Positions 44,526 through 63,339 of a DNA stretch of 64,000 bases are shown in pieces. The stretch is from the NCBI RefSeq assembly GCF_002788215.1, contig NZ_CP024845.1:2480001-2544000 (forward strand), given 5' to 3'. Below the pieces are notes generated by a model. That model ran no database searches. It saw only the letters and a list, made by a program, of their open reading frames with translations, and had not been told where the DNA came from. This stretch comes from Halohasta litchfieldiae (GTDB lineage: Archaea; Halobacteriota; Halobacteria; Halobacteriales; Haloferacaceae). The translations under genes and the position numbers were made by a program. The number at the start of each line of letters is the position of its first letter. The first letter of the stretch is position 1.

Positions 44526-44762
44526 GTAGTTGTACAACCGGTTTTCGTCGACCTCCCGGCTTTCGGAAACCACATCGGATGGAGTGGTACGAACCGAATC
44601 AGAATCTCTCTGTTTGTTTGTAATCAACACGTTAGGCCTTTGAATACCTCTACAAAAATCCCGAAAACCGGTTGATGTCGCTATTCGATACCCTATCCTC
44701 CGAAACAGCACTGTCTAGTTAAGCCAGTTTAAGAAGTGAGCAGTTCGTGGTTAGAGTTGTCT

Positions 44763-45499
44763 ATGCTGTCGCCAGAACTGCTCAGAGAGACGTTGGACAT
44801 GGCAAATCTTGAATGTTGGGAGCGAGAACGGACGGCGACGTTAACGAGACGCTACACGCCTCGTTCGCACACCAGAAATCTTCGATTTCTGGGGACGCCC
44901 GTCAGGGCGTTCGCCGTCCGGCTCCACGCGACTGGCTGTTCACTTAGAGAGACACAAGCAGTTCTCCGACTATTCGGCGTACAACGGTCTCATCAGGCAA
45001 TCTTTCAGTGGGTACATCGAGTAGCTGACAGCGTTCTCGACCCGCCTGAGGCGCAGCCGAAGCGGGTCGCTGTAGACGAGACCGCTGTCAAAATCAATGG
45101 CGAGTGGTCTTGGTTATATGCTGCAATAAACCTCGGCACCAAGTTGATTTTGGGTGTCGATCTCTTCGGAACTCACGGCACCGATCCAGCTGCTGCGTTT
45201 TTGCATGGACTCTCCGAGAAACACGACCTCTCCGAGGCCGTGTTTCTCGTTGATGGCTTCGGCTATCAGACTGTCCTTGCTCGATTAGAACTCAGCATCG
45301 GCGTGATTATACAGACCGGAACCTGATCGAAAAGTGTTTTCAGACACTCAAAATGAGGATCGACCGCTTCCATAATTCGTGGGTGGGCAGTCGGTCGAGC
45401 GTTCGTCGCTGGTGTTCGCAGTTTGTACATTATTATAACCGCCAGCGACCGCATTAATCACTAGATAATCGGACGCCAGCTGAGGAGATCGCTAACTAT
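44763..45499 (+). pseudogene. IS6-family DDE transposase, frameshifted
   Basis: The frame begins MLSPELLRETLDMANLECWE and carries the DDE residues: VAVDETAVKINGEWSW (Asp), AVFLVDGFG (Asp) and, in another frame, DRNLIEKCFQTLKMRIDRF (Glu). A one-base shift lies around 45295-45310. The downstream frame then meets TAA at 45455 where related enzymes have CAA (RPHQSLD becomes RPH-stop-SLD). The final stop inside the right repeat has mutated to TAT. About 19 extra residues encoded by palindromic DNA interrupt the N-terminal region. The enzyme cannot be functional. Confidence 0.85.
44844..44910 (+). repeat. Cluster of three palindromes inside the transposase
   Basis: Three consecutive inverted repeats occur in 67 nt: ACGAG/CTCGT (44844-44848 and 44860-44864), CCAGAAATC-TTC-GATTTCTGG (44872-44892) and ACGCCC-4 nt-GGGCGT (44895-44910). 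They correspond to the segment RRYTPRSHTRNLRFLGTPV that interrupts the transposase frame without shifting it. Such hairpins resemble the subterminal structures of IS200/IS605-type elements. The insertion interpretation depends on remembered lengths of related transposases. Confidence 0.55.
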
Positions 45500-47381: not shown

Positions 47382-48653
47382 TCATGTGTCAGCACCGTTG
47401 GTAGCGAGTGAGTAGAGTGCTTCTGTGAGTACTTCGGTCGCAGCAGCACAGTCCCACCAGTCGGTCCATTCGAGGGGGTTGTGTGAATGTCCACCCCGAG
47501 ATGGAGCAAACAACAAGCCTGCGTCGGTCGCGGTGGCGATCTGCATTGTATCATGTCCTGCCCCCGAATGAACGTCGACAGTTTCGATACCCAAAGCATC
47601 CCCTGCGTCGTGTAACGCAGCACGACAACTTGGTGCCATATCGGCGGGCGACACGTCGTACGAGCAGTCGAGCGTTGTCTCGACGCCGCGGTCGGCTTCG
47701 AGAGCTTCGAGTTTCGACTCGGCACGGTCGACGAGTCGATCGATCACTGATTGATTGACAGCACGGATGTCGACGCTGAATTCGACTTGGCCCGGGACGA
47801 CGTTGACCGCACCCGGATCAACGGAGAGTTCGCCGACAGTTGCGACGGCCGTTGGGTCCGTTTCAGCGGCAGCCTGTGCCGCCTGTTCGACCGCGAGAAC
47901 AAACTCACTGGCGGCCGCAAGCGCGTCCGTTCGATCCGCCATCGACGTTGATCCGGTGTGTTCTGGCGTCCCTTCGATGGTCCCGTGGAGCCTCGTAGTC
48001 CCGTTAATTGTCGTCACGACCCCAGCCGAAACGTCCAACTGTTCGAGCCGCTGGCTCTGTTCGACGTGGAGTTCCAGCCATGCGTGCCAGTCGGTCGCGT
48101 CGAGACGTCCCTCGCCGTGGAAGCCGATATCCTCCAACGCCTCACGAAGCGTCTCCGTGCCGTCCGACAGTTCGAGCGCCGTGGCGATGTCAAGCAGGCC
48201 AGCGGCAACCGACGATCCGAGCACCCCGTCAGCGAATCGTGTCCCCTCCTCACCAGTAAAACAGACGACTTGGATCGGTCTTGTCGTGGATACGTCGGCG
48301 TCTTGGAGCGCCCGGACGGCTTCGAGAGCCGCGTAGACTCCGAGTGGGCCGTCGAAGATGCCACCGTTCGGAACGGAGTCGAGGTGACTCCCAACAGCAA
48401 CCGGTGGAGCCTCGGGATCGCACCCCTCGGGCAGCCACGTTCCGGTGATATTGCCGACAGCATCGGTGTCGACGGTCAGATCCGCAAAGATCAATCGCTC
48501 GACGAGGCTTTCACGGGCCTGCTGGTTCGGCGTGGTCCCCGGCAGCACCGTTCGGCCGCGCCCGTTTTCGGTCGCGATAGTGCCGAACTGTGCGTTGCGC
48601 TCGATATCTTGCTGGAGTCGGTCACCATCAACCGGAAACCGAGATTCGGTCAT
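47382..48653 (-). CDS. M20-family amidohydrolase, allantoate amidohydrolase-like
   Basis: The 423-residue zinc-dependent hydrolase has AVGSHLDSVPNGGIFDGPLG (His-x-Asp and second Asp ligands), VVCFTGEEGTRFADGVLGS (Glu-Glu), LELHVEQSQRLEQLDV (His) and HSGAGHDTMQIA (His). This is the allantoate amidohydrolase / N-carbamoyl-amino-acid hydrolase branch. Alongside uricase, HIU hydrolase and OHCU decarboxylase genes, hydrolysis of allantoate to ureidoglycine or ureidoglycolate with ammonia release is the likely reaction. All metal ligands are present. It is the third enzyme gene of the operon and follows the HIU hydrolase gene by 108 nt. Confidence 0.87.
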   Translation of the reverse strand: MTESRFPVDGDRLQQDIERNAQFGTIATENGRGRTVLPGTTPNQQARESLVERLIFADLTVDTDAVGNITGTWLPEGCDPEAPPVAVGSHLDSVPNGGIFDGPLGVYAALEAVRALQDADVSTTRPIQVVCFTGEEGTRFADGVLGSSVAAGLLDIATALELSDGTETLREALEDIGFHGEGRLDATDWHAWLELHVEQSQRLEQLDVSAGVVTTINGTTRLHGTIEGTPEHTGSTSMADRTDALAAASEFVLAVEQAAQAAAETDPTAVATVGELSVDPGAVNVVPGQVEFSVDIRAVNQSVIDRLVDRAESKLEALEADRGVETTLDCSYDVSPADMAPSCRAALHDAGDALGIETVDVHSGAGHDTMQIATATDAGLLFAPSRGGHSHNPLEWTDWWDCAAATEVLTEALYSLATNGADT

Positions 48654-48761: not shown

Positions 48762-49112
48762 TCAGCTTCCTCGATAGGTTGTGTACCCGCCGGGAGACAA
48801 CAACAGCGGGACGTGATAGTGGTCGTTGGCATCGTCGATAACAAATCGGACCGGGACTGTCTCCAAGAACGTCGACCCCGAGGGCCCCTGTCGATAGTAG
48901 GCTCCAACATCGAAGAGCAGTTGATATGTGCCGGCCTCCATTTGGGATTCGGTCAACAGCGGCTCATTGAGTCGACCATCATCGTTGGTAGTTCCCTGAG
49001 CGATCGTCTCGGCTGGTCCGTCGCCGTCCAGTCGCTGTAGTGTCACCTCGACACCTTCAGCAGGGCCCTCTCGGCCCGTGTCGAGGACGTGTGTTGTTAG
49101 TTCGGCACTCAT
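48762..49112 (-). CDS. uraH: 5-Hydroxyisourate hydrolase (transthyretin-related)
   Basis: The 116-residue protein begins with LTTHVLDTGREGPAEG (active-site His), has the conserved core EPLLTESQMEAGTYQLLFD and HYHVPLLLSPGGY, and ends with the diagnostic YRGS. It hydrolyses 5-hydroxyisourate to OHCU. It overlaps the urate oxidase stop by 4 nt, directly coupling production and removal of the unstable intermediate. Length and motifs are normal. Confidence 0.95.
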   Translation of the reverse strand: MSAELTTHVLDTGREGPAEGVEVTLQRLDGDGPAETIAQGTTNDDGRLNEPLLTESQMEAGTYQLLFDVGAYYRQGPSGSTFLETVPVRFVIDDANDHYHVPLLLSPGGYTTYRGS

Positions 49113-50077
49113 GCTGTGTCCTCCTCGTCGAGGTCGCTACGGTCCATCGAGAACTGCTGGAAGCCGGTCGGTCGCGGCGGTTCTCGCAGCACCTTCCCGT
49201 CCCCGTCCAGATCGTCGCGCTCTTTGATCCATGTTCGATTGTTCGCCTCAAAGCTGACCGATTCGAGTTGAGGGTAGCGTTCGAGAATCCGAAGCCCGGT
49301 CTGATAGATCAGCTCTTGAATCGAGTTTACGTCGAGTTCGTGGAAGACGGTCTGTACAATATCGCGTACCTGCTCGGCAGGAACGTAGCGCTGTGGGTCG
49401 TCTCCGAGCGCGTCGACCGAATCGGCGTATGTCCAGAAGATATCCATCGCGACGTAGAGCGTTCGATTCTCTCGTTCTGGAAGGGTCGTATACTCGTCGT
49501 CGACGTAGCCGACGAACGAATTATCTTTGACTTTGACGAGTTCGATTCCGGTGACACCGCTTCGATGGTTCTCGATGGCTGATCCGTCATCGCCCCGAGT
49601 CAGATAGAGTTCTCCGAACGCCGACTCGCCATGGGAGACACCGAAGACGAGATCACTGGCCTCGAACGCATCGTTTTCAGGAACGGGTTGCTCGTCGAAG
49701 GGGAGTTCGTCGGCAGACATCTGTACAGCATCCACCTGCGAGTAGGTCTCCAGAAACAGCGACCCCACGAAGTGGAGGAAGCCCTCGACTGTCGCACCGT
49801 CGTACTCTCCCGCGTGGTGGAGTACAAAGTTCTTCATCGAGTCCGTTGCAACGACCATACTGTTGTCGCCATCGCTGAACGACGGCAGGAACTCCTCGCC
49901 TTCGACCTGCATACGGAGTTCTAATCCGAACAGTATGTTGTTTCGGCCATCGAAATCAGACTCCGGAATCGTCCGAACGTCCTCCAATGGGGTCCCGTAC
50001 GTCCGATAGACGGCGACTTTCTCTTTGCCGTAGTTCATCGTCCGCTCGTCAGCGTTTGACAGTTCACTTTCGCTCAT
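49109..50077 (-). CDS. Urate oxidase (uricase)
   Basis: The 322-residue protein starts with MNYGKEKVAVYRTYG-type strand (catalytic Lys region) and has MVVATDSMKNFVLHHAGEY (Thr-Asp and Asn of the active site). The C-terminal part includes YPQLESVSFEANNRTWIKE and a substrate-binding VNSIQELIYQTGLRILERYP. It is the cofactor-free tunnelling-fold uricase that oxidises urate to 5-hydroxyisourate with H2O2 release. GGAGGA lies 12 nt before the ATG, an unusually clear ribosome-binding site for a haloarchaeon. A 29-codon ORF overlaps the start by 4 nt. Confidence 0.95.
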   Translation of the reverse strand: MSESELSNADERTMNYGKEKVAVYRTYGTPLEDVRTIPESDFDGRNNILFGLELRMQVEGEEFLPSFSDGDNSMVVATDSMKNFVLHHAGEYDGATVEGFLHFVGSLFLETYSQVDAVQMSADELPFDEQPVPENDAFEASDLVFGVSHGESAFGELYLTRGDDGSAIENHRSGVTGIELVKVKDNSFVGYVDDEYTTLPERENRTLYVAMDIFWTYADSVDALGDDPQRYVPAEQVRDIVQTVFHELDVNSIQELIYQTGLRILERYPQLESVSFEANNRTWIKERDDLDGDGKVLREPPRPTGFQQFSMDRSDLDEEDTA

Positions 50078-50404: not shown

Positions 50405-50908
50405 TTACGATGTCAGTAGTTCGTCGAGCCGCAACCGTGCGATCTCGTGTACTTCGTCTAAGGCTGTCTGGAACTCTTTGGACTCCGAATTGTCGACTCG
50501 GTCCTCCATTGTCGCTTGAATCACATCCGGAGACGCACCTTTCACCGCCATGATGAACGGGAAGCCGAAGGTGTCACGGTATGTTTCGTTCAGCCGCTGA
50601 AACGCCTCGTACTGCTCTCGGGAGAGTTGGTCAAGGCCAGCCGAGGCCTGCTCCTCGCGCGAGGCGTCGGTCATTTCGGTTTGCTCTCCGAGGTCAGGGT
50701 GGGCCTGTAACAGTTCGAGCTGGTTGTCGTGTGAGGCGTTCTGTACAGCCTGTCTCATGCTCTCGTGGACGGCCTCGATAGAGTCGAACGGTCGGTCCGA
50801 AGCGGCTCGCTCGGCTACCCAAGGAGATGTTTCATATACACTTTCTAGGGTATCGACGAATGATGTCTTGTCCATCCCATTGAGGGCTTGGACTGTGAGT
50901 TCAGCCAT
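50405..50908 (-). CDS. uraD: OHCU decarboxylase
   Basis: The 167-residue all-helical protein has the family motifs LLQAHPDLG (catalytic His), a helical LDQLSREQYEAFQRLNETY and FGFPFIMAVKGAS, and a C-terminal EVHEIARLRLDELL. It converts 2-oxo-4-hydroxy-4-carboxy-5-ureidoimidazoline to S-allantoin. It has its own A/T-rich promoter about 29 nt upstream and is separated from the uricase promoter by 241 nt, so it forms a second transcription unit divergent from the nucleobase permease gene. Confidence 0.94.
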   Translation of the reverse strand: MAELTVQALNGMDKTSFVDTLESVYETSPWVAERAASDRPFDSIEAVHESMRQAVQNASHDNQLELLQAHPDLGEQTEMTDASREEQASAGLDQLSREQYEAFQRLNETYRDTFGFPFIMAVKGASPDVIQATMEDRVDNSESKEFQTALDEVHEIARLRLDELLTS

Positions 50909-51151: not shown

Positions 51152-52522
51152 ATGTCCAATAATAGCGGTGATGAGATTAGAATCAACTACGGTATTGAAG
51201 AAAAGCCTCCGCTTCCGAAATCAATACTCCTTGGATTACAACATGTGTCAGTTATGATTGTCCCCTCAACTGCGGTCGCATTCATTGTTGCGGGGGCTGC
51301 TGGGCTAGGGGCTAGCGATACAACGTTTTTGGTACAGATGGCCATCCTCTTTGCAGGAGTTGCAACCCTCGTTCAGGCCTATACCGTCGGACCTATTGGT
51401 GCCAAGCTACCGATCGTAATGGGAACGAGTTTTGCCTTCGTCGGTGCGATGAGCTCGATTGGCGCAAGTTCCGGCCTGGACGTCGTCTTCGGTTCAATTC
51501 TGATTGCAGCCTTTGTGGTTCCCTTCCTCCTCGGTTGGCAGTTTAACCGACTCGAATCGTTTTTCCCTCCACTCGTCACCGGCCTGATTGTGATTATCAT
51601 CGGTCTGTATCTCATTCCGGTCGGCATGGAGTACTCTGCAGGTGGCGTTGGAGCTGCAGACTTCGGCTCAATGCAAAACCTCGGACTTGCCTCGTTAGTT
51701 CTCGCCATTGCGGTCCTTTTTAATCTGTTTTTAACTGGTATCTGGCGCATACTAAGTATCATTGTCGGAATCAGTGTTGGTTACATTACTGCAGTCGCTT
51801 TCGGCGTCGTTGACTTCACACCGGTGTACGAGGCTGCATGGGTCGCCGTGCCGACGCCAGGACGGTTTGGATTTAGCTTTGAGGCAATCCCACTCCTTAC
51901 GTTCATGTTTCTTTTCTTAGTGTCAGGGATGGAAACAATCGGAGATATGTCCGGTATTACCGCCGCAGAAGGCCGGAATCCAACCAAAACAGAATTCCGT
52001 GGTGGCATCTTCGCGGACGGATTCATCAGTGCTATCGGGGCCATCTTCGGATCGTTCCCACAGACTTCGTTCTCACAGAACGTTGGCATTATCAACTTTA
52101 CTGGCGTGATGAGTCGACACATTGTCGGTATCGGAGGCTTCATTCTCGTTGGGCTCGGACTCATTCCTAAATTCGGGGCCATTGTGACGACAATCCCTGC
52201 GTCGGTGTTTGGTGGAGCCGTATTAGTAATGGTCGGGATGGTTGCTGCAAGCGGTATGCGCCTGCTCTTTTTAAATATCGAGATGAACCGGCGCAACATG
52301 GTTATTATTGCGACCTCACTCGGTCTCGGGCTGGGTATCGCAACTGTTCCTGATGCACTTTCGGGGCTACCTGCTGGGGCACAGACGCTCTTCGGGGAGC
52401 CGGTTATTATGACGGGTCTCGGAGCATTACTACTGAATACGTTTGTTCCCGGCAGTTCCAGTCCGTTGTTTGATTCTGCTGACCCCGTTTCGTCGACTCT
52501 GAAACCAACAGACGACGACTGA
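51152..52522 (+). CDS. NCS2-family nucleobase (urate/xanthine/uracil) permease
   Basis: The 456-residue membrane protein has about 14 segments and follows the NCS2 pattern: GIEEKPPLPKSILLGLQHV near the N-terminus, a QxH-type QH in the first helix, GSFPQTSFSQNVGIINFTGV (the conserved NQ/N signature region) and a late LNTFVPGSSSP. The genomic setting beside urate catabolic genes argues for urate or xanthine uptake rather than uracil. Key motifs are intact. It is expressed from the divergent promoter shared with uraD. Confidence 0.9.
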   Translation: MSNNSGDEIRINYGIEEKPPLPKSILLGLQHVSVMIVPSTAVAFIVAGAAGLGASDTTFLVQMAILFAGVATLVQAYTVGPIGAKLPIVMGTSFAFVGAMSSIGASSGLDVVFGSILIAAFVVPFLLGWQFNRLESFFPPLVTGLIVIIIGLYLIPVGMEYSAGGVGAADFGSMQNLGLASLVLAIAVLFNLFLTGIWRILSIIVGISVGYITAVAFGVVDFTPVYEAAWVAVPTPGRFGFSFEAIPLLTFMFLFLVSGMETIGDMSGITAAEGRNPTKTEFRGGIFADGFISAIGAIFGSFPQTSFSQNVGIINFTGVMSRHIVGIGGFILVGLGLIPKFGAIVTTIPASVFGGAVLVMVGMVAASGMRLLFLNIEMNRRNMVIIATSLGLGLGIATVPDALSGLPAGAQTLFGEPVIMTGLGALLLNTFVPGSSSPLFDSADPVSSTLKPTDDD

Positions 52523-52684: not shown

Positions 52685-52867
52685 ATGAACGCTAATCACC
52701 AAAACAGCCTCATAGATTGGCAGTTCGATTCTATCGGCTATACACAACCGAAGAGGCTTGATCGCACTATACCCGCATCAACTACTCGTCTGGACACAAC
52801 TAAGAGATTGTCCCGACTCAAAATTCGGATGAACGATTTCCCCAGCCTATGCGAGAACGATCGGTAA
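52685..52867 (+). CDS. Possible 60-residue leader ORF coupled to the allantoinase-like gene
   Basis: A leaderless ATG is positioned about 28 nt after a TATA box, and the stop overlaps the next start as TAATG. The peptide begins MNANHQNSLIDWQFDSIG and its second half is Arg/Lys-rich, unlike typical haloarchaeal proteins, so it may be a fortuitous frame in a long leader. GACACAAC (52793-52800) lies within it. The tiling with promoter and downstream start is the evidence. Confidence 0.35.
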   Translation: MNANHQNSLIDWQFDSIGYTQPKRLDRTIPASTTRLDTTKRLSRLKIRMNDFPSLCENDR

Positions 52868-54243
52868 TGGCACCGATAGAGACGCTCATCACCAGCGGCA
52901 CAGTTGTAACTGCAGACTCGATGTTTGATGCAACTGTCGGTATCGACGACGGAACGATCGTCGGCGTCGGCGACGAACGGGCGCTGCCGACGGCTGACCG
53001 ACGAATCGACGTTGGCGGTAACCTCGTACTCCCGGGAGTAGTCGACCCCCACACTCACCTCGCGGGGTATAACTCGATCGACTCCTACGAAACAGGGACC
53101 GCAGCGGCCGCCGTGGGTGGCGTCACCAGCCTCCTAACGTTCGCATGGCAGGGATGGGATGACGGCGAGTGGGACGAAGACGGGACCCTCTGGGGAGCTG
53201 TCGAACGCCACAAAGACGGCGCATTCCCGCTGATCGACTGTGGGCAACACCCCGTGATTACTCAGGAGACGCCCGAAGTACTCGACGAATTCCCAGCGCT
53301 CGTTGAGGCGGGGGTCACCTCGTTTAAGATGTTCACGACTGACGACATCCGGCTCTCCAACGGGTTCATCGGCGAGGTGTTCGACCGACTCGCCGAACTC
53401 GGTGCGGTCGGCATGGTTCACACCGAAGACTACTCCGTGTGCACCGAGCGGACGAAGGCGGTAAAATCGGACCCTTCGGGCGAGTCGACATCGGCCTACC
53501 CCCAGTCGCGGCCGGACTACGCCGAGGCGATGGCGGCTGGAGCGGCTGCTCGACTCGCCGTCGCGGCCGACGCGAAGTATTACGGCGTCCACACGACCTC
53601 AAAGGCAGCAGCCGATGCTATCGCCTCGGTCCGAACTGACGGTTCGAACGTCAGGGCCGAAACGTGTACACACTATACCGCGCTCGACGACTCCACCTAC
53701 GGCCGCCTTGGAAACCGCGCGATCATGGCACCGCCGCTGCGGACGCAGGACGATATCAACGCATTGTTCGACCGATTCCGCGACGGGACGCTTTCGGTTG
53801 TCTCGACCGACCACGTCGCACTCCCCACCAGCCGAAAAGAGGGCGGCCCTTGGTGGGAGAGCGCCTTCGGCGTCAACAGCCTCCAGACAAGCCTGCCGGT
53901 CTTCCACGACGAAGCCGTGAATCGGCGCGGCCTCTCGTATCCCTCGCTTGTCCGGCTCATGTGTACTACGCCAGCCCGCACGTTCGGACTCCCCTCAAAG
54001 GGGCGGATCGAACCGGGTGCCGACGCCGATCTCGTGGTGTTCGATCCCGGCGAGACCTATACGATCAACGCAGCCCAGAACCACTCGAATGCGGACTATT
54101 CGATCTACGATGGCCGTGAAGTGACTGGACGAGTGAAAAAAACGTTCGTCCGCGGTACACTGGTCGCCGACAGCGGTGAGATCGTTGCCGAACCGGGACA
54201 CGGACAGTTCCTCAGTCGTGTCGTTCCTGATTGGGATCAGTAA
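52867..54243 (+). CDS. Cyclic amidohydrolase, allantoinase/dihydropyrimidinase-like
   Basis: The 458-residue product is counted from MAPIETLITSG. The alternative ATG at 52849 adds six basic residues. The binuclear metal ligands are all visible: VVDPHTHLAG (two His), TSFKMFTTDD (carboxylated Lys), MVHTEDYSV (His), GVHTTSKAA (His) and VVSTDHVAL (Asp). This is the hydantoinase/allantoinase family. In this locus hydrolysis of allantoin to allantoate is the expected reaction and fills the step between OHCU decarboxylase and the M20 enzyme. Sequence alone does not exclude dihydropyrimidinase or hydantoinase activity. Confidence 0.87.
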   Translation: MAPIETLITSGTVVTADSMFDATVGIDDGTIVGVGDERALPTADRRIDVGGNLVLPGVVDPHTHLAGYNSIDSYETGTAAAAVGGVTSLLTFAWQGWDDGEWDEDGTLWGAVERHKDGAFPLIDCGQHPVITQETPEVLDEFPALVEAGVTSFKMFTTDDIRLSNGFIGEVFDRLAELGAVGMVHTEDYSVCTERTKAVKSDPSGESTSAYPQSRPDYAEAMAAGAAARLAVAADAKYYGVHTTSKAAADAIASVRTDGSNVRAETCTHYTALDDSTYGRLGNRAIMAPPLRTQDDINALFDRFRDGTLSVVSTDHVALPTSRKEGGPWWESAFGVNSLQTSLPVFHDEAVNRRGLSYPSLVRLMCTTPARTFGLPSKGRIEPGADADLVVFDPGETYTINAAQNHSNADYSIYDGREVTGRVKKTFVRGTLVADSGEIVAEPGHGQFLSRVVPDWDQ

Positions 54244-54275: not shown

Positions 54276-54470
54276 CTAGACCTGTTGGGACCGGCTCTGT
54301 TGTTGTCTGGTAATGTAGCCTGCAATCCGGTTCCGGACCCGCCGCGACTCGACGTCAGTCAGGGTCGACACGCGATGACGGTTCGTCTCGAAGCTGTCGG
54401 TGAAGCCATCCGGATGCCGCTGGAGAAGGGTATCACCGATGTTAATGATCTCTTCGGCGTTCAGTGTCAT
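54276..54470 (-). CDS. Stand-alone ribosomal protein S17e-like paralogue
   Basis: The 64-residue product is counted from MTLNAEEIINIGDTLLQRHP; an ATG at 54515 would add 15 residues. A TATA-like AACTATTC about 29 nt upstream favours 54470. The body matches archaeal S17e: GDTLLQRHPDGFTDSFETN, a V..LT.VES segment and VRNRIAGYITR, but the usual AIKP-type N-terminus is replaced. It is encoded antisense between two amidohydrolase genes, away from any ribosomal cluster, so it is probably a second copy. Whether it enters ribosomes is unknown. Confidence 0.72.
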   Translation of the reverse strand: MTLNAEEIINIGDTLLQRHPDGFTDSFETNRHRVSTLTDVESRRVRNRIAGYITRQQQSRSQQV

Positions 54471-54609
54471 GCCACCCAATCGACCGACCTGACGAATAGT
54501 TCTTTCGCGGACCATTCGAACTACGGACGATGACAGACACCCAGTATGTGTGAGTGGCGTGTGTGGCCGACCTGTGGCACTGTTGCAGGGGTGACACTTT
54601 TCAGCCCGT

Positions 54610-54623
54610 CCCCGGTATCCGGG
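54610..54623 (+). promoter_or_regulatory. Hairpin next to the ribosome-binding region of the deaminase gene
   Basis: CCCGG-TAT-CCGGG is a 5-bp perfect stem placed just upstream of GGGAGCGGA and the ATG at 54630. It could modulate translation; this is inferred from position alone. Confidence 0.3.
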
Positions 54624-54629
54624 AGCGGA

Positions 54630-55964
54630 ATGATACTAACCGGGACCGTCGTCGTGGATTCGACGACCGTGATCGAGGATGGCGCTGTCGTCGTCGACGG
54701 CTCACAGATCGAAGCTGTCGGCCATCGAGCGGAACTCGTCGACCAGTATACGGACAGAGAGCGACACGCCTACGATCTGTTGCTCCCCGGCTTTGTCGGC
54801 GGACATATCCACTCGGTCCAGAGTTTGGGCCGCGGCATCGCCGACGATACCGAACTACTGGACTGGTTGTTCGATTACGTACTCCCGATGGAGGCATCGC
54901 TGTCGGCCGACGAGATGGAGGTCGCCGCCAAACTCGGCTATCTCGAACTGATCGAGAACGGCACGACGACATGTATCGATCACCTCTCGGTCGCACACGC
55001 CGATCGTGCCTTCGAGGCCGCAGGCGAGTTGGGTATCCGCGGCGTCCTTGGGAAGGTGCTAATGGACCAACGGTCGCCCGACGCCCTCGAAGAGGACACC
55101 GACCGGGCGCTTGCGGAGTCTGAACGGCTGATCGAGGCCTACCATGGGGCGTTCGACGACCGAATTCGGTACGCAGTGACCCCACGGTTTGCGGTCTCCT
55201 GTAGTGAACAGTGTCTCCGTGGTGCCCGCGAGTTAGCCGACACCTACGACGGCGTCCGGATTCACACCCACGCCAGCGAGAACCGAAGCGAGATCGAAAC
55301 GGTCGAATCCGACACCGGACTGCGGAACATCCACTGGCTCGACGAGGTCGGCCTCACCGGCGAAGACGTCGTCTTGGCACACTGCGTGTGGACCGACGAC
55401 AGCGAACGTGAGGTTCTCGCGGAGACTGGTACCCACGTTACTCACTGTCCGTCGTCGAATATGAAACTCGCAAGCGGTGTCGCACCCATCGAGGACTACC
55501 TCGACCGCGGCATCAACGTCGCGCTGGGCAACGACGGCGCGCCGTGTAACAACACGCTCGATCCGCTGACCGAGATGCGACAGGCAAGCCTCTTACAGAA
55601 AGTCGACCAGCTGGAGCCGACTGCTACCCCGGCACGGACGATCTTCGAGATGGCGACTCGAAACGGTGCAAAGGCCGCCGGGTTCGATGACCTCGGAGAA
55701 CTCCGGGAGGGATGGCGAGCCGATATCATCGGTCTCACCACGGACCAGACTCGGTCGGTCCCGATGCACGACATCTTTTCGCACCTCGTTTTCGCCGCCC
55801 ATGGCGACGACGTCCAGTTTACTATGGTCGACGGGAATGTCCTCATGGAAGACGGCGAGGTGACCGTCGTCGACGCCGACGAAATCCGTCGACGCGGTAG
55901 CGAGATCGGCCTCGGGATGGATCTCGAAACCGAGCGGAAAGCCGCACACGAACAGAGGCCCTAA
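54630..55964 (+). CDS. Amidohydrolase, guanine/adenosine deaminase-like (AtzA family)
   Basis: The 444-residue product starts at MILTGTVVVDST with GGGAGCGGA just upstream. The longer frame to 54546 lacks family character. Metal ligands and motifs of the mononuclear deaminase branch are present: LPGFVGGHIHSVQSLGRG (two His), RIHTHASENRSE (His), VLAHCVWTDD (His) and LGNDGAPCNNT (Asp). The layout resembles guanine deaminase and SAH/MTA deaminases. In a purine-degradation locus, guanine to xanthine is the obvious candidate, but substrate residues were not resolved. It is a single transcription unit. Confidence 0.84.
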   Translation: MILTGTVVVDSTTVIEDGAVVVDGSQIEAVGHRAELVDQYTDRERHAYDLLLPGFVGGHIHSVQSLGRGIADDTELLDWLFDYVLPMEASLSADEMEVAAKLGYLELIENGTTTCIDHLSVAHADRAFEAAGELGIRGVLGKVLMDQRSPDALEEDTDRALAESERLIEAYHGAFDDRIRYAVTPRFAVSCSEQCLRGARELADTYDGVRIHTHASENRSEIETVESDTGLRNIHWLDEVGLTGEDVVLAHCVWTDDSEREVLAETGTHVTHCPSSNMKLASGVAPIEDYLDRGINVALGNDGAPCNNTLDPLTEMRQASLLQKVDQLEPTATPARTIFEMATRNGAKAAGFDDLGELREGWRADIIGLTTDQTRSVPMHDIFSHLVFAAHGDDVQFTMVDGNVLMEDGEVTVVDADEIRRRGSEIGLGMDLETERKAAHEQRP

Positions 55965-56038: not shown

Positions 56039-57454
56039 TCACTTGTAGCCGGTTCGGTCGGCGATATCTGTCGCCGCCTCCGAGGCGCGAGAGAGGATAC
56101 TATCGAGGGGTTCGTCGAACGTCTGTATCTCGCGGTTCTCCATGATGACATCGCCAGCACAGACCACGGTGTCGACCTCGAAGCCCTGAGCAGCGTGGAC
56201 GAGTGTAAACACCGGGTCCTTGCTGGGGGTTAGATGCGGGTGGTCAAGGTCGACGATTGCGAGGTCCGCCTGTGTTCCCGCTTCGAGCGAGCCGAGGCTC
56301 TCGGCGCGCCCGATAGCGGTAGCGGCATCCCGCGTGATCATATCGAAGGCCGTCTGTGCGTCGACAACGCCAGCATCGCGGTGGTACCCCTTGTGGCCAC
56401 CAGCCATAGCGCGAACGTCGCTGAGGGGATTGACCGTATCGCTCAAAATCGAGTTGTCGGTTCCGAGACCGACGGTGACACCCGTATCGAGCATCTTCAC
56501 AACCGGGGCAAACCCGGTTGCAAGCCGCATATTCGCCATGAAGTTGTGCGCGACCGCCGTCCCGGTTTCCGCAAGAGTACGAATGTCGCTCGCGTCGATC
56601 TGGACGCAGTGACCCAACAGTGTGCGCTCACCGAGGTAGCCGACGTTGCGGAGGTACTCGATGCTGGAGAGATCGCGCTGCTCTTGGGCCTCGGCTTCGG
56701 CGACATGAGCCGTCGTCATCACGTCGTGTTTCTCTGCGAGTGCGTAGGCCTCCCGAAAACAGCGGTTCGTCGTGGTCTCGACGACGACCGGCGCTGGCCA
56801 GATCGACTGTCGACCGTTGGCGGTCCCGTCGTAGGTTTCGATCAGTGAGTCGACTTCGGCGATGACGTCATCAGTCTCCTCGACAAACGTCTCTAGCGGT
56901 GGGTGGTCGACGTCGTCTTCCCGAGCTTGAATATCGGTGACGAGCTCCTGAAACACCGCGTCGGCACCGCGGTCGACCATACCCGCGCCGTAGACGTTGC
57001 GGATGCCTGCTTCGTCGTAGACACCGAGTTTTGCCTCGATGGTCGACCAGTCGTCCCAGAGAACCTCGGTGTCGTTTTCGACGAACGCCGTCACGCCCGA
57101 CTGGATCGCCTCGATGCAATACAACGTCGCTGCGAGCGCGTGCTCGTCGGGGTCCATTGCGAGTGTCCCCGGGCGTTTGACGTTGTAGAGCCAATCCAGC
57201 AGGCCGCGGTCCTCGGCAAACGAGCCGCGAAGCAAAATGTCCGAGACGTGGGTGTGAGGATTGACTAGCCCAGGGATGACAGCGCCCCCTTCGGCGTCGA
57301 TAACACGATCGGCGGCGTGAACGCTGCCAAGTTCGTCGGTGGTTCCGACTGCGGTGATTTCATCGCCCTCGATAGCCACGGCACCGCCCTCAATTACGGT
57401 CCGATTAGTATCTTGAGTAATGACACGTCCGTTTGTCACGAGTAAGTCCGTCAT
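56039..57454 (-). CDS. Amidohydrolase, second purine-deaminase-like enzyme
   Basis: The 471-residue product starts at MTDLLVTNGRVI, 4 nt after the stop of a small upstream ORF. Ligand motifs are GLVNPHTHVSDILLRG (two His), MTTAHVAEAEAQE (His), TLLGHCVQID (His) and GLGTDNSILSDTV (Asp), so it is probably an active deaminase of the AtzA/MtaD superfamily. It is distinct from the neighbour at 54630-55964 and convergent with it. Adenine- or aminopurine-type substrates are possible, and assignment is open. A long loop around 165-215 is unlike the neighbour. Confidence 0.82.
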   Translation of the reverse strand: MTDLLVTNGRVITQDTNRTVIEGGAVAIEGDEITAVGTTDELGSVHAADRVIDAEGGAVIPGLVNPHTHVSDILLRGSFAEDRGLLDWLYNVKRPGTLAMDPDEHALAATLYCIEAIQSGVTAFVENDTEVLWDDWSTIEAKLGVYDEAGIRNVYGAGMVDRGADAVFQELVTDIQAREDDVDHPPLETFVEETDDVIAEVDSLIETYDGTANGRQSIWPAPVVVETTTNRCFREAYALAEKHDVMTTAHVAEAEAQEQRDLSSIEYLRNVGYLGERTLLGHCVQIDASDIRTLAETGTAVAHNFMANMRLATGFAPVVKMLDTGVTVGLGTDNSILSDTVNPLSDVRAMAGGHKGYHRDAGVVDAQTAFDMITRDAATAIGRAESLGSLEAGTQADLAIVDLDHPHLTPSKDPVFTLVHAAQGFEVDTVVCAGDVIMENREIQTFDEPLDSILSRASEAATDIADRTGYK

Positions 57455-57458
57455 CGGG

Positions 57459-57542
57459 TTACTCCACACCACGCAGGGCCCGCACAATCGACTCGATCGG
57501 CCGTACCGAATACTGGCTCAGGTAGTCAGTTGCTGCAGTCAT
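57459..57542 (-). CDS. Leaderless 27-residue ORF before the second deaminase gene
   Basis: ATG at 57542 opens 27 codons ending in TAA 4 nt before the deaminase ATG. The peptide begins MTAATDYLSQYSVRPIESIV and looks like one amphipathic helix. A TATA-like ATCATTAAGT (minus strand, 57568-57577) is about 30 nt upstream, so the transcript would start at this ATG. It parallels the small ORF ahead of urate oxidase. Independent function is unproven. Confidence 0.45.
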   Translation of the reverse strand: MTAATDYLSQYSVRPIESIVRALRGVE

Positions 57543-57774: not shown

Positions 57775-59433
57775 ATGAGCGGAGACCCTTTCGTCCGGAT
57801 GGATAACATCACGAAGACGTTTCCAGGCGTAATCGCGAACGACGACGTCTCGATAACTGTCCGTGAAGGAGAGATTCACGGCCTCCTCGGAGAGAACGGT
57901 GCTGGAAAGAGCACACTAATGAAGGTGTTGTACGGGCTGTATTCGGCAGACAGTGGGGAGGTCTATTTAAATAACGAGCGGCTCGAACTATCGTCCCCGC
58001 AGGATGCTATCGACGCTGGCATCGGGATGGTTCACCAGCATTTCAAACTCATCCCGCGGCTGTCTGTCGCAAAGAACATTATTCTCGGTAGGCGTGAACC
58101 GGCAGCCGCGTTCCGCAACGGCAGTGGAGCAGACGACAGCGGCCCGGTCTCATCGGTGGCCTCCAGCAACGTTCTGCAGTGGCTCGCAGCCAGATTCACG
58201 CTCGGACTCGACGAACCGGTGAAAAAAATCCAGTCGCTGGCAGACGATTACGGGTTCGATATCGATGTCTCGGCACCGGTCTGGGAGCTCGATGTTGGCG
58301 AGCGTCAGCGGGTCGAGATTCTCAAGGCCCTGTACCGGGATGTCGACCTGTTAATTCTCGACGAGCCGACGGCGGTCCTCTCGCCGACGGAGGCCGAGCG
58401 GCTCTTCGAGACGCTGCGGAAACTCACCGATCAGGGCCTGTCGATCATCATCATCACGCACAAGCTCAAGGAGGTCCAGTCGATCACAGACCGCGTGACC
58501 GTCCTTCGGGACGGCGAAAACGTCGGAACGGTCGAGACGGCCGACGTCAGTCGAGAGGAACTGGCCAAGATGATGGTTGGCCGCGACGTGCTGTTCGAAA
58601 TCGAAAAGGAGTCCGTCTCAATCGGTACCCCCGTGCTCGAAGCCTCAAACCTGCGTGCAGACGACGAGAGAGGGATCGAGGCGCTCTCCGGAGTCGACAT
58701 GACGCTCCACGAAGGCGAGATCATCGGTATCGCGGGCGTCAGCGGGAACGGACAGATGGAACTGGCCGAAACACTGGTTGGTGTCCGTGAGGCCACTGGC
58801 GGATCGGTTTCGATCAACGGTGAGGAGCTTACGAATAAACCGCCCCGCTCGTTCATCGATAACGGCGTGTCGTTCGTCCCCGAGGACCGCCATCGGGACG
58901 GCTGTGCGGAGCCCCTGTCGGTCATGCACAACGCAATTATGAAGGGGTACACGAGCAACGAGTTCGGAGCTGGGTTGCGGCTCGACTACGAGTCGACGGC
59001 GTCGTACACGGGCTCACTCGTCGACGAGTTCGACATCCGTGGCATCACGGATGTCTCGGAGATCACAGCTGGGGAACTGTCGGGTGGGAACCTACAGAAA
59101 CTCATCCTCGCACGAGAGATCGACCGCAATCCGGACCTTCTCGTCGCAAACCAGCCGACACGCGGCGTCGACGTCGGCGCGATCGAATTCATCCGCGAGC
59201 GACTCCTCGAACAGCGCGACAGTGGCACCGGTATCCTGCTGCTCTCGGAGGACCTCGACGAGATACTCGATCTCAGCGATCGGATTCTCGTCATCTACGA
59301 AGGGGAGTTCGTTTACGAAACAACACCCGACGCAGCGGACCGGCGGCGGATCGGACTCGAAATGAACGGCGGCGATGTCGGCCAGCAGTCACAGCCAGTC
59401 GCTGCCGCCGACGGCGGTCGGAGTGAGTCCTGA
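57775..59433 (+). CDS. BMP-type nucleoside ABC importer, double ATP-binding subunit
   Basis: The 552-residue protein has two nucleotide-binding domains. The first has Walker A GENGAGKST, signature ELDVGERQRVEIL and Walker B LLILDEPTAVLSP. The second has a degenerate P-loop GVSGNGQMELAE, signature ELSGGNLQKLI and LLVANQPTRGVDV. This matches the RbsA/YufO-like subunits of nucleoside importers. About 45 residues (Ala/Ser/Gly-rich, around 105-150) are inserted in the first domain between NIILGRREP and LADDYG, longer than in most relatives. It overlaps the permease start by 1 nt. Confidence 0.9.
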   Translation: MSGDPFVRMDNITKTFPGVIANDDVSITVREGEIHGLLGENGAGKSTLMKVLYGLYSADSGEVYLNNERLELSSPQDAIDAGIGMVHQHFKLIPRLSVAKNIILGRREPAAAFRNGSGADDSGPVSSVASSNVLQWLAARFTLGLDEPVKKIQSLADDYGFDIDVSAPVWELDVGERQRVEILKALYRDVDLLILDEPTAVLSPTEAERLFETLRKLTDQGLSIIIITHKLKEVQSITDRVTVLRDGENVGTVETADVSREELAKMMVGRDVLFEIEKESVSIGTPVLEASNLRADDERGIEALSGVDMTLHEGEIIGIAGVSGNGQMELAETLVGVREATGGSVSINGEELTNKPPRSFIDNGVSFVPEDRHRDGCAEPLSVMHNAIMKGYTSNEFGAGLRLDYESTASYTGSLVDEFDIRGITDVSEITAGELSGGNLQKLILAREIDRNPDLLVANQPTRGVDVGAIEFIRERLLEQRDSGTGILLLSEDLDEILDLSDRILVIYEGEFVYETTPDAADRRRIGLEMNGGDVGQQSQPVAAADGGRSES

Positions 59434-60536
59434 TGGAATTCAACGTCGAGTTGGACGCACGTGAAGACGTGCCGCAGTGGATGGAGTACGGGACGCCGGT
59501 GTTCACGATTCTAGCAGCACTCGCAGTAAGCGGTATTGCGCTGTTCGCATTGGGGGTGAATCCAATTGTCGCATACGAGGTCATGTTCTTCCAGACGCTC
59601 ACGACGGAGTTCGGGCTCACGGAGACGGTGGCCAAGGCCGTGCCGTTGATATTCGCTGGGCTGGCCGTGTACGTGCCATTAAAAGCGCAGCTTTGGAACA
59701 TCGGTGCGGAAGGTCAACTGTTCATCGGTGCAATAGCTGGCACGTGGATTGGGCTAAACGTGTCGCTGCCGATGATCGCGCTCCTCCCGCTGATGTTCGT
59801 CGGGGCGGGTATCGCGGGTGCTCTCTGGGTAGCGATCCCCGCAGTACTCCGAGCTAAGTGGGGGATCAACGAGATCATCACTACGCTGCTGTTTACGTTC
59901 ATTGCTGCGGATGTCAAAAACTACGTTGTCCGTGGCCCGATGCAAGCTCCCGGCGCGAACTTCCCACAGACCGCACAGCTCCCGCTGGCAGCCCAACTGC
60001 CGGATATTCCTGGACTCGGGTTTCCGATTGGGATTCTCCTCGCGATTGTGTTCGTCGCGCTGACTTACATACTCGTGAATCACACGCGACTGGGCTTTGA
60101 GATCACATTCATCGGTGCGAACGACCGGGCAGCCGAACAGGCCGGGATGAGCAAGTACAAGATCTACCTGTTCGTCCTCATGGCTGGTGGTGCTTTCGCT
60201 GGCTTCGCTGGCATCAGCGAGATCTCCGGCGTCCAAACGCGTTTGCGTGCGTTTTTCGCTCCAGGATACGGCTTCACGGCGATCCCCATCGCGTTGCTCG
60301 GCCGCAACGGTGCGTTCCAAGTCATGCTTGCCGCACTGTTTTTCGCCGTGATTTTCGTCGGTGGGTCAAGCATCGAGACGCTACTGAGTGTGCCCGCTGC
60401 GATCGTCGACATCATCCAAGCGCTGATTATCCTGTTTTTGCTCACCGCAGAGTTCTTCAAACAGTACAGTGTCGACCTCTCGTTGAACCGGGATCGGGAG
60501 TCACGTGGTGTCACGCAGCCGGATGGTGAGATCTGA
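59433..60536 (+). CDS. BMP-type nucleoside ABC importer, permease subunit 1
   Basis: The 367-residue membrane protein has about nine or ten helices of the BPD_transp_2 family: VPLIFAGLAVYVPLKAQLWN, IGAEGQLFIGAIAGTWIGL, GINEIITTLLFTFIAADV and GYGFTAIPIALLGRNGAFQV. It begins within the ATPase stop (TGATG) and ends within the next permease start. Together with the second permease it should form a heterodimeric channel for nucleosides or related purine compounds. Confidence 0.9.
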   Translation: MEFNVELDAREDVPQWMEYGTPVFTILAALAVSGIALFALGVNPIVAYEVMFFQTLTTEFGLTETVAKAVPLIFAGLAVYVPLKAQLWNIGAEGQLFIGAIAGTWIGLNVSLPMIALLPLMFVGAGIAGALWVAIPAVLRAKWGINEIITTLLFTFIAADVKNYVVRGPMQAPGANFPQTAQLPLAAQLPDIPGLGFPIGILLAIVFVALTYILVNHTRLGFEITFIGANDRAAEQAGMSKYKIYLFVLMAGGAFAGFAGISEISGVQTRLRAFFAPGYGFTAIPIALLGRNGAFQVMLAALFFAVIFVGGSSIETLLSVPAAIVDIIQALIILFLLTAEFFKQYSVDLSLNRDRESRGVTQPDGEI

Positions 60537-61528
60537 TGACTGGACTGCTTGCGGGGCTGGCAAACGCGACGGTCAACGCCAGTACGGTCCTCATCCTCGC
60601 TGGACTCGGTGAACTCATTAGTGAACGGGCCGGAGTGCTCAACCTCGGTGTCGAGGGGATGATGTTAGTCGGTGCCCTGACTGGGTTCGTGACGACCGTA
60701 GTAACTGGGAGCTACTGGCTCGGTCTCGGCGTTGCCGTCTTTGCTGGCGGTCTCATGGCACTGATCCACGGCTTCCTCTGTATCTCGCTCAACTCCGATC
60801 AGGCGGTCAGCGGGATTATGCTGACGCTTCTCGGAACCGGGCTGACGACGTACTTCGGGAACAGCTACACCGGAAACTCGATCTCGGGGTTCCCCGAACG
60901 GACGATTCCAATCATCGGCGATTTCCTCGTCGAGATCCCGATTATCGGACCCGCCGTCTTCCAGAGCACGGCCACAGATTATATCGCGCTCCTCCTCGTT
61001 CCGCTGGTCTGGCTGTTCCTCTACCGGACGAACATAGGACTGGAACTCATCTCTGTCGGTGAGGATCCGGAGACGGCCGATACGATGGGCGTCGACGTTT
61101 ACAAGATGCGGTACCTCGCCGTGGTAATCGGCGGAGTACTGGCCGGTGCTGCAGGTGCGCACCTATCACTGTCGTTCAACCAGATATGGTCGACAGGGAT
61201 GACCGCTGGCCGCGGGTGGGTTGCAGTGGCCCTTGTCATTTTCGCCCGCTGGCGTCCCGGGCGGATTCTTTTGGGTGCTTACCTGTTTGGGCTGTTCAAC
61301 GCACTTCAGTTGTACTCCCAAGCGTTCGACCTCACACTGGGTCCCGGATCGCCCGTCGCTGGCATCGCTAACCCCATTATCGATTTCGTCATGAATCCGA
61401 CGATCATGTCGACATACCCGTATATCGTGACGCTGCTCGTCTTGGTCATCACTGTTGTTCGAGCCGAGAACAGTGAACTCGCCCAGCCGTCGGCGCTGGT
61501 CCAGTCGTACACCCGTGAAGCCGACTGA
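60536..61528 (+). CDS. BMP-type nucleoside ABC importer, permease subunit 2
   Basis: The 330-residue protein has about nine helices with VLILAGLGELISERAGVLNL, GVEGMMLVGALTGFV, NSDQAVSGIMLTLLGTGLTT and GRGWVAVALVIFARWRPG, the second-subunit pattern of the NupQ/YufQ type. It starts in the stop of permease 1 (TGATG). The substrate-binding protein gene follows after a 251-nt gap with its own leader, so it may be separately expressed. Confidence 0.9.
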   Translation: MTGLLAGLANATVNASTVLILAGLGELISERAGVLNLGVEGMMLVGALTGFVTTVVTGSYWLGLGVAVFAGGLMALIHGFLCISLNSDQAVSGIMLTLLGTGLTTYFGNSYTGNSISGFPERTIPIIGDFLVEIPIIGPAVFQSTATDYIALLLVPLVWLFLYRTNIGLELISVGEDPETADTMGVDVYKMRYLAVVIGGVLAGAAGAHLSLSFNQIWSTGMTAGRGWVAVALVIFARWRPGRILLGAYLFGLFNALQLYSQAFDLTLGPGSPVAGIANPIIDFVMNPTIMSTYPYIVTLLVLVITVVRAENSELAQPSALVQSYTREAD

Positions 61529-61779
61529 GCGGTCTACACTCATCTGAGTGAGCCACACACGTATTGGAGATGTGGCACACTACCACTGACCGAGACTGGT
61601 CGACGACTATAATCACCCAAGCACCGGTAATTCCGGCAAATTCACTAGGTAGCTACCGCAAATAGATATTTATTACCAAACTTTATCATTACATGGGATT
61701 ACGTGAGTATGTACCACCCAAAATGAGAAAAAAGTGGACACTAGTTGAGAGACTACGCATATAATATTCGAGACATACA
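61529..61779 (+). promoter_or_regulatory. Spacer before the substrate-binding protein gene, with inverted repeat and small ORF
   Basis: GCCACA (61552-61557) and TGTGGC (61571-61576) form an inverted repeat after the permease gene. An ATATTTATTA stretch (61666-61675) is a likely TATA element. It lies about 23 nt before an ATG that opens a 23-codon ORF (61693-61764, MGLREYVPPKMRKKWTLVER and on), ending 15 nt before the binding-protein ATG. The peptide is basic and may be fortuitous. Confidence 0.35.
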
Positions 61780-62856
61780 ATGACAAGAACTCATATATCA
61801 CGACGAGATGCACTGAAAACAGCCGCCGGGACGGCCGGACTTATCGGACTAGCTGGGTGTTCAGGTAGTTCGGAACCATCAGGCGGAGATGGCGTGAACG
61901 CCGCGTTCATTTACCAAGCCGAAGTCGGCGATGTTGGCTGGGACCGAGCACACGAGGACGCCCGGCAGGAAGTCACCGAACGCTTCGACTGGCTCGAAAC
62001 GGAGTTTTCCGAGGCGGTTGCCCCCGGCGATGTCCAGCGAGTGGCCGAACAGTACGTTTCCAGCGGGATGGACGCAATCTTCGGAACTACGTTCGGCTAC
62101 ATGGATCCGCTGCACAGTATGGCACCGGACTACCCGGAGACGACCTTCGAACACTGTTCGGGCTTCAAGACCCAAGACAACATGGGGCGGTACTACGGGC
62201 GGCTCTACCAAGCCCGGTTCCTGTGTGGCGTCGCTGCGGGCCTCCTCACCGAGACGAATCAAATCGGATACGTCGCGGCGTTTCCGATTCCGGAGCTGAT
62301 CCGCCAGATCAACGCGTTCGTGCAAGGAGCACGGACTGTCAATCCCGACGTTACAGCCGATGTCAGGTGGACCAATGCATGGGTCGACCCGCCAGCGGTG
62401 ACTCAGGCAGTCAATGCCTTAACCGACAGTGGAGCCGACGTAATCAACAACCACCAGACGACCACTGCAGCCACCCAGACCGCTGCCAGCAACGAAGCGT
62501 GGGCCTTCACCTACACGACCTCGATGGCCGAGGCGGGCGGCGACTACTACGGTAACTCAGCCGTATTCAATTGGGAGGAGTTCTACGCGCCGACGCTTCA
62601 GGCGATTAACGACGACAACTGGGAGTCGGACGCCTACTGGGAGGGGCTCGATGCTGGCGTCGTCGGCCTCGGAGACTGGGGGCCGCAGGTGCCCGATAGC
62701 GTCGTGAGCGAAGTCGAAACGAAACAGGACGAACTCATCAACGGCGACCGGACGGTCTGGCAAGACACACAGTTCGCTGGCGAGTCCGACTCGTTCCTCT
62801 TCGGCGAGATGGGAAGCTACGTCGAAGGCATCAACGGAAGCGTCCCCAGCTCGTAG
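61780..62856 (+). CDS. BMP-family substrate-binding lipoprotein
   Basis: The 358-residue protein has a Tat signal (SRRDALKTAAGTAGLIGLAG) and lipobox LAGC, then a BMP/PnrA fold: AFIYQAEVGDVGWDRAHEDA, DAIFGTTFGYMDPL, QARFLCGVAAGLLTETNQIG and NALTDSGADVINNHQ. It should sit on the outer face of the membrane and deliver nucleosides or purines to the adjacent double permease. Family members bind purine nucleosides; the actual ligand is not known. Confidence 0.92.
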   Translation: MTRTHISRRDALKTAAGTAGLIGLAGCSGSSEPSGGDGVNAAFIYQAEVGDVGWDRAHEDARQEVTERFDWLETEFSEAVAPGDVQRVAEQYVSSGMDAIFGTTFGYMDPLHSMAPDYPETTFEHCSGFKTQDNMGRYYGRLYQARFLCGVAAGLLTETNQIGYVAAFPIPELIRQINAFVQGARTVNPDVTADVRWTNAWVDPPAVTQAVNALTDSGADVINNHQTTTAATQTAASNEAWAFTYTTSMAEAGGDYYGNSAVFNWEEFYAPTLQAINDDNWESDAYWEGLDAGVVGLGDWGPQVPDSVVSEVETKQDELINGDRTVWQDTQFAGESDSFLFGEMGSYVEGINGSVPSS

Positions 62857-62958: not shown

Positions 62959-63339
62959 ATGAAGCGAGTTGTCGACGTCCCAGAGAACGCGGACGTACTT
63001 GGCCCCTACAGCCACGGCACGACGAACGGAGACCTGCTGTTTACAGCCGGACAGATCCCGATAACGCCGACGGGAGAGGTGCTTGACGACGAGCCGATCA
63101 CTGTCCAGACCGAGCAAGCACTCTCGAACATCGAGCAGATTCTCGTCGCCGCGGATCTAACGATGGCTCACGTCCTCAAGACGACAGTGTATATGACCGA
63201 TATCGGTGACTTCAACCGGATGAACGAGGTTTACCGATCGTTTTTCGATTCGGAGCCGCCAGCACGGACGGCATTCGAAGTCCAACGTCTCGCTGACGGG
63301 GCTGCCATCGAGATCGAAGCAGTCGCCACACACGAGTAG
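62959..63339 (+). CDS. RidA-family protein (enamine/imine deaminase)
   Basis: The 126-residue protein has the RidA pattern: GPYSHGTTNGDLLFTAGQIP, TEQALSNIEQILVAADL, VLKTTVYMTDIGDFNRMNEVY and PARTAFEVQRLADGA with the conserved Arg. It would hydrolyse reactive enamine/imine or aminoacrylate-type intermediates, or act as a hydrolase for ureido products in purine/pyrimidine breakdown. It is monocistronic within the locus. A 7-bp hairpin CACACGA-5 nt-TCGTGTG overlaps its stop codon. Confidence 0.93.
   Translation: MKRVVDVPENADVLGPYSHGTTNGDLLFTAGQIPITPTGEVLDDEPITVQTEQALSNIEQILVAADLTMAHVLKTTVYMTDIGDFNRMNEVYRSFFDSEPPARTAFEVQRLADGAAIEIEAVATHE

Follow-up and report, generated by a model that had tools for sequence, protein, structure and literature searches.

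The 64-kb stretch of DNA analyzed here (the window) carries, at 54276–54470 on the reverse strand, a real open reading frame (ORF) of 64 aa whose product, MTLNAEEIINIGDTLLQRHPDGFTDSFETNRHRVSTLTDVESRRVRNRIAGYITRQQQSRSQQV, is a homolog of ribosomal protein S17e. The protein passed the cut-off of the Pfam family Ribosomal_S17e (27.8 bits, cut-off 22.8, E 2.6e-6) and fell narrowly under that of the NCBIfam S17e equivalog PRK01151 (71.0 bits, cut-off 72). A second in-frame ATG at 54515, 5' of the start at 54470, would give an ORF of 79 aa. We retained 54470 as the start codon because relatives align from it and because a conserved BRE/TATA-like promoter element, CGAAAGAACTA(T) at 54497–54507(-), lies between both candidate starts. 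The product keeps the S17e core VRNRIAGYITR and FETN and has a different N-terminus, as an earlier sequence-only reading of this DNA had claimed. Canonical S17e is also encoded in the window genome (single contig, 3.33 Mb, 99% complete) at G000:C1:693401 (L001:1495–1680), and the two proteins share 44% identity. The window gene is therefore the second, non-canonical S17e of its genome and lies far from ribosomal genes, as that reading had proposed; that it might be the only S17e gene is ruled out. The ORFs adjoining the canonical gene upstream were read from sequence as CitG-like and DUF447-like, and the annotation of Natrinema thermotolerans gives the identical CitG–DUF447–S17e order.

The S17e paralog lies antisense between two amidohydrolase genes. 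It is convergent with an allantoinase/hydantoinase-like gene at 52849–54243(+), assigned by family searches and locus clustering, and divergent from a 5'-deoxyadenosine-deaminase-like gene at 54546–55964(+) (NF005557, 689 bits), the true start of which is probably near 54630. Family searches placed further purine genes around them: an NCS2 xanthine permease (51152–52522, +), OHCU decarboxylase (50405–50908, -; TIGR03164), urate oxidase (49109–50077, -; TIGR03383), a 5-hydroxyisourate hydrolase (HIUase) of the transthyretin family (48762–49112, -), another amidohydrolase of the same island (56039–57487, -) and a RidA-family protein (62959–63339, +). An M20-family peptidase at 47382–48653(-) was read from its neighborhood as allantoate/ureidoglycolate amidohydrolase-like. 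Sequence reading and clustering identified a putative nucleoside/BMP-type ABC transporter at 57775–62856(+), with an ATPase, two permeases and a binding protein, and a candidate IS-type transposase at 44736–45326(+), which adjoins the island and would fit its mobility.

Just past the window, about 11–30 kb from the paralog, the locus L121 encodes a second 5'-deoxyadenosine deaminase, the large subunit of xanthine dehydrogenase (Xdh), RdfA, ASRP (NF045487, 457 bits), the proteins C9 and C18, a MobA-like protein (related to TIGR03310, below cut-off) and an XdhC-like protein. RdfA and ASRP lie 21–25 kb from the paralog. The genome has three RdfA-family genes (G000:C1:2555708, 2576188 and 26707), of which two lie no more than about 42 kb from the paralog. 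The window genome thus has the same module as the other paralog islands described below.

Scanning 84,980 genomes with a protein pattern returned four relatives, all in Halorientalis and with 70–75% identity. All four were in purine-degradation loci containing CoxS/Xdh, the S17e paralog, OHCU decarboxylase, uricase and HIUase, and in L033–L035 an allantoinase-like gene was again convergent with the paralog. Other haloarchaea, too, have this gene near amidohydrolases, a check that the sequence-only reading had named. Profile searches of the window genome's own family (170 genomes) and class (391 genomes) revealed further members in several other families. We annotated 18 loci by clustering, together with annotated plasmid regions. 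The paralogs sit in purine-catabolism islands with amidohydrolases, Xdh, molybdenum- and selenium-cofactor genes, RdfA and ASRP; 5'-deoxyadenosine deaminase, RidA, CofC/MobA-like proteins, MoeA, NCS2 permeases, TusA, YqeC, SelD, C9 and C18 also recur, in variable order. On plasmid pNG700 of Haloarcula marismortui the order is RdfA, ASRP, a hypothetical protein, NadE, S17e, 5'-deoxyadenosine deaminase, PhnE, an ABC ATPase, PhnD, Rid, a nucleotidyltransferase, YqeC, TusA, SelD and YqeB. The paralogs form two subclades, P1, which includes the window gene, and P2 (MTADPEDIISIGDRLLRQHPDSFS...), which is frequently about 0.6–2 kb from P1. A conserved protein of about 80 aa, C1 (HFDELSE.AK...YD.IKFVEYY), is commonly encoded between or beside the two (L095–L102 and L104–L106, e.g., L098:9945–10184(+)). 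It had no match in Pfam, NCBIfam or the PDB, and its AF2 model was moderate (pLDDT 76, models disagreeing). None of 50,697 phage records matched the S17e paralog, and an origin in a phage or virus was rejected on that basis.

The recurrence of RdfA and ASRP bears on one alternative, in which the paralog would act with these proteins, ASRP being SMC-like, to organize or silence the DNA of the island. Coalescin, also an ASRP, organizes or silences DNA in Sulfolobus. RdfA and ASRP adjoin the paralog in Halorientalis, Haloarcula and the L100–L105/L113/L117 group and lie at the distance given above in the window genome, which favors such a role. On the other side, neither was seen within 20-kb loci of the L095–L099/L106 group, the two proteins also form a separate pair in many haloarchaea (PMC10869688), RdfA occurs three times in the window genome, and in Haloferax the RdfA and ASRP that have been studied govern cell shape. 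We consider a chromosome-organizing role rather improbable.

An IQ-TREE tree of 62 sequences separated 34 paralogs from 28 canonical S17e proteins at one branch with support of 100/100, so that the window protein does not group with canonical orthologs. Within each side many forks were unresolved because the alignment has few columns. NG86 dN/dS among P1 genes was about 0.1–0.2 in most pairs and 0.39 in one, very close pairs being uninformative. These values show that the paralog is under purifying selection. Pseudogene features were not found: frames were intact, dN/dS was low and the promoter was conserved. The suggestion of a displaced copy under decay, one option of the sequence-only reading, is therefore contradicted by dN/dS, by conservation across several families and by the promoter, whereas its description of a second, non-canonical S17e far from ribosomal genes was right.

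The P1 promoter pattern occurs once in the 64-kb window, at the paralog, with about 0.4 occurrences expected by shuffling. Outside the Natrialbaceae-type group, P1 genes carry C(G/C)AAAGAACTAT or a near-identical form of it about 30–40 nt 5' of the start; the P1 promoter sequence is CGAAAGAACTAT and its Natrialbaceae counterpart GTTTGGCAAAC. In L100, L103 and L117 the P1 promoter contains the latter sequence, a putative operator that occurs nowhere else in these loci. Most P2 genes share another promoter element, CAAAGCACTTAA or a close variant. The motifs CNAAAGNACTW and GTTTGSCAAA were found at P1/P2 promoters only and not upstream of pathway genes, and for these motifs an operator common to the paralog and the pathway was set aside; the P1 promoter element is likewise confined to paralog promoters, so no regulon motif emerged, which counts against the regulator reading given below. 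The rare-codon fraction was 0.171 in paralogs versus 0.076 in canonical S17e, which suggests that the paralogs are expressed at a lower level than canonical S17e; base composition and plasmid location confound this difference, however, and GC3 is equal in the window pair.

Residues were compared in ungapped columns of 65 canonical, 21 P1 and 12 P2 sequences. The mean net charge of residues 1–13 was +2.9 in canonical S17e, -3.0 in P1 and -3.5 in P2. K4, Y7 and K9, which form the basic N-terminus of ribosomal S17e in Halobacteria and are 94–98% conserved in canonical proteins, were missing from every P1 and P2 sequence, where mainly D/N/E, E/D/N and I/M, respectively, took their places. Position 44, mostly G in canonical S17e, was always R in both subclades. 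The core N47-R-[IV]-[AS]-G-Y52-[IV]-T54 was retained, and VRNRIAGYITR was entire in almost every member of P1 and P2. A divergent paralog of H. marismortui pNG700 (L112:9001–9195) is without the VRNR-I-A-G of the core and is still in a selenium/molybdenum island. The paralog profile aligned with solved archaeal eS17 mainly over positions 11–57. The AF2 model of the window protein (pLDDT 93.3) had archaeal eS17 as its top PDB matches (TM 0.90), and the three-helix S17e fold is thus predicted to be kept. These residue patterns lead us to infer a remodeling of the N-terminal surface to suit another partner; in most members, helix 3 would still be able to bind nucleic acid.

The same comparison bears on the main rival reading, that the paralog displaces canonical S17e in the head of the 30S subunit during growth on purines. 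Nearly every P1 and P2 protein keeps the S17e fold and the entire VRNRIAGYITR core, and retention of that core would also be expected of a ribosome-bound protein. Ribosomal protein paralogs outside ribosomal operons are of a known kind, and haloarchaea have been proposed to change their ribosomal protein composition (PMC7394353). Against it, the most conserved N-terminal residues of the canonical protein are gone and the charge of residues 1–13 is reversed in both subclades, the Haloarcula paralog has lost the core as well yet is kept in its island, P1 and P2 are two different paralogs that often adjoin in one locus, and C18, described below, is not a ribosomal protein. We regard this specialized-ribosome reading as unlikely, and give it weight because the core is preserved. 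Between the ribosomal variant and the nucleic-acid-binding regulator that had both been put forward from the sequence, the evidence leans toward the non-ribosomal role.

We then consider the phylogenetic profile. Of 391 Halobacteria genomes, 36 had at least two S17e. YqeB, a marker of selenium-dependent molybdenum hydroxylases (SDMH), was present in 30 genomes from nine genera, and all 30 had a second S17e; this includes every Haloarcula genome with YqeB, where the assignment of most second copies to the paralog clade rests on a single sequenced representative (L112) and a single genome map (G054). Six genomes had two S17e and lacked YqeB: the window genome and two Halorientalis genomes, whose second copies are in the paralog clade, and three f17 genomes (G258, G357 and G388). 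The second S17e of the latter three was outside the paralog score range and appears canonical-type, a call that rests on the canonical-type tree rows of L114 and L115, with L114 linked to G357 by plasmid position, and that is indirect for G258 and G388. The plasmid-borne, canonical-type genes L114:9001–9204 and L115:9001–9192 (Halorussus halophilus and Halomicrococcus gelatinilyticus) represent a different duplication or relocation of S17e. Outside Halobacteria, only 2 of 101 sampled genomes (G468 and G483, both archaeal) had two S17e matches.

YqeB (TIGR03309) was absent from the window genome and the two Halorientalis genomes in the profile search, and these still have both the paralog and C18. 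Full-length C18 (E below 1e-90) was found in exactly 33 of the 391 genomes, which are the 33 with the paralog clade (the 30 with YqeB, the window genome and the two Halorientalis genomes), and was absent from the other 358. Counting genomes, Fisher's p is about 1e-48, an overestimate given the relatedness of the genomes and the many supplied by Haloarcula. In the 19 genomes measured, C18 and the paralog were on the same contig, 0.3 to 49 kb apart, or 399 kb in G387 (linear coordinates). Other candidate associates were rejected. Uricase occurred in 5/24 genomes with the paralog versus 6/31 without it, and 5'-deoxyadenosine deaminase was a loose associate (23/24 versus 19/31). C9 gave full-length-type matches in most paralog-bearing genomes and was absent in G061, G429, G039 and G390, so it is not a strict partner.

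This distribution also bears on the possibility that an ancestral mobile island captured the duplicate, which has since persisted through linkage and has little function or none. Its patchy occurrence, often on megaplasmids, would suit such a passenger, as would the finding that among the 170 genomes of its own family only the window genome scored at least 90 bits against the P1 profile. However, dN/dS is well below 1, and start, promoter and core are conserved. The gene was moreover retained in all 30 YqeB-bearing genomes despite changes in gene order, and in the Halorientalis and window genomes without YqeB. A mere passenger, already disfavored, is very improbable.

C18 is an uncharacterized protein of 267 aa, encoded in the window genome at G000:C1:2559467–2560267(+) (L121:15467–16270), 25 kb downstream of the paralog. 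It has an RHH-like N-terminus followed by a CPNC...CQRC zinc ribbon. The N-terminal segment weakly resembles VapB antitoxins and DUF7557 (RHH/VapB-like; E 0.03–0.24), and small haloarchaeal ORFs that stand alone match its first 38–72 residues. C18 lies 3' of P1 on the same strand, about 10–180 nt away, in L100, L102–L105, L113 and L117, an arrangement consistent with one P1–C18 operon at these loci. C9 (L121:14257–15372(+)), which adjoins RdfA–ASRP and C18, has a match to HTH_50 below cut-off (E 4.7e-5) and a second HTH-like segment.

The reading we prefer, at close to even confidence, is that the paralog is a neofunctionalized S17e that binds nucleic acid and serves the purine island as an accessory protein or regulator, most likely with C18. 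An ancient archaeal S17e duplicate would have been recruited in Halobacteria into a mobile purine-catabolism/molybdenum-hydroxylase island. It would have retained the three-helix fold, with R44-V-R-N-R-I-A-G-Y-I-T-R55 as its basic third helix, and swapped the basic N-terminus for an acidic/hydrophobic one (D/N4, E/D7, I9). Its primary work would no longer be that of a ribosomal subunit, rRNA binding presumably having been lost; helix 3 may contact DNA or RNA, and the new N-terminus may hold a protein partner, most likely C18 or else another. The regulatory or accessory role is suggested by anatomy and linkage. We put forward more tentatively that the duplicate is a dedicated non-ribosomal nucleic-acid-binding partner of C18 and that the pair is an obligate control module of purine/selenium–molybdenum hydroxylase islands; joint inheritance of one island could yield the same co-occurrence without physical partnership.

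If correct, the preferred reading would be a clear example of a ribosomal protein, universal in archaea, that has left the ribosome and joined a metabolic island, where it has a single specific partner and a role open to testing. It would also add the S17e paralog and C18 as two new components of haloarchaeal selenium-dependent purine hydroxylase loci. The label "30S ribosomal protein S17e" on haloarchaeal plasmids would probably misstate function. Should the paralog instead enter ribosomes, it would offer a genetically tractable archaeal test of specialized ribosomes. In the main texts of open-access papers, we found no report linking the S17e paralog to purines, selenium or C18, and no account of the regulation of haloarchaeal selenium-dependent purine hydroxylase loci.

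Compared with archaeal S17e/eS17 (PF00833, PRK01151), the paralog has the same three-helix fold (TM 0.90) and core (F..DFE.NK..V..LT.V.S..VRNRIAGYITR). It differs in having an acidic/hydrophobic N-terminus in place of the basic KPxYxK, in forming a separate clade just under the NCBIfam equivalog cut-off, and in lying in a metabolic island while the canonical gene is retained. Bacterial zinc-free ribosomal protein paralogs (C- forms), which substitute under zinc limitation, are likewise duplicates whose genes lie outside ribosomal operons, in a metabolic or regulatory locus. In the S17e paralog, by contrast, no metal-binding residues were gained or lost, the N-terminal charge is reversed, and the gene is linked one-to-one with the non-ribosomal C18. 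A 2012 survey listed S17e paralogs on plasmids of Haloterrigena turkmenica and H. marismortui (PMC3353972); these loci correspond to L111/L099 and L112 and belong to the same clade as the window gene, but in the relevant portion of that survey they are merely listed, without context, function or partner. H. marismortui pNG700 is the archaeal SDMH example in two papers of 2008, in which SDMH loci carry orphan SelD, YqeB and YqeC and the main texts of which do not contain the word "ribosomal" (PMC2276186, PMC2432076). The pNG700 paralog lies among selD, yqeC, yqeB and 5'-deoxyadenosine deaminase, whereas YqeB is missing from the window and Halorientalis islands, which have the uricase pathway instead. 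Finally, RdfA–Sph3 (ASRP) is a haloarchaeal cell-shape pair (PMC10869688), and paralogous RdfA and ASRP pairs occur in many S17e-paralog islands. The island pairs differ from it in sitting in purine islands beside the S17e paralog, C9 and C18.
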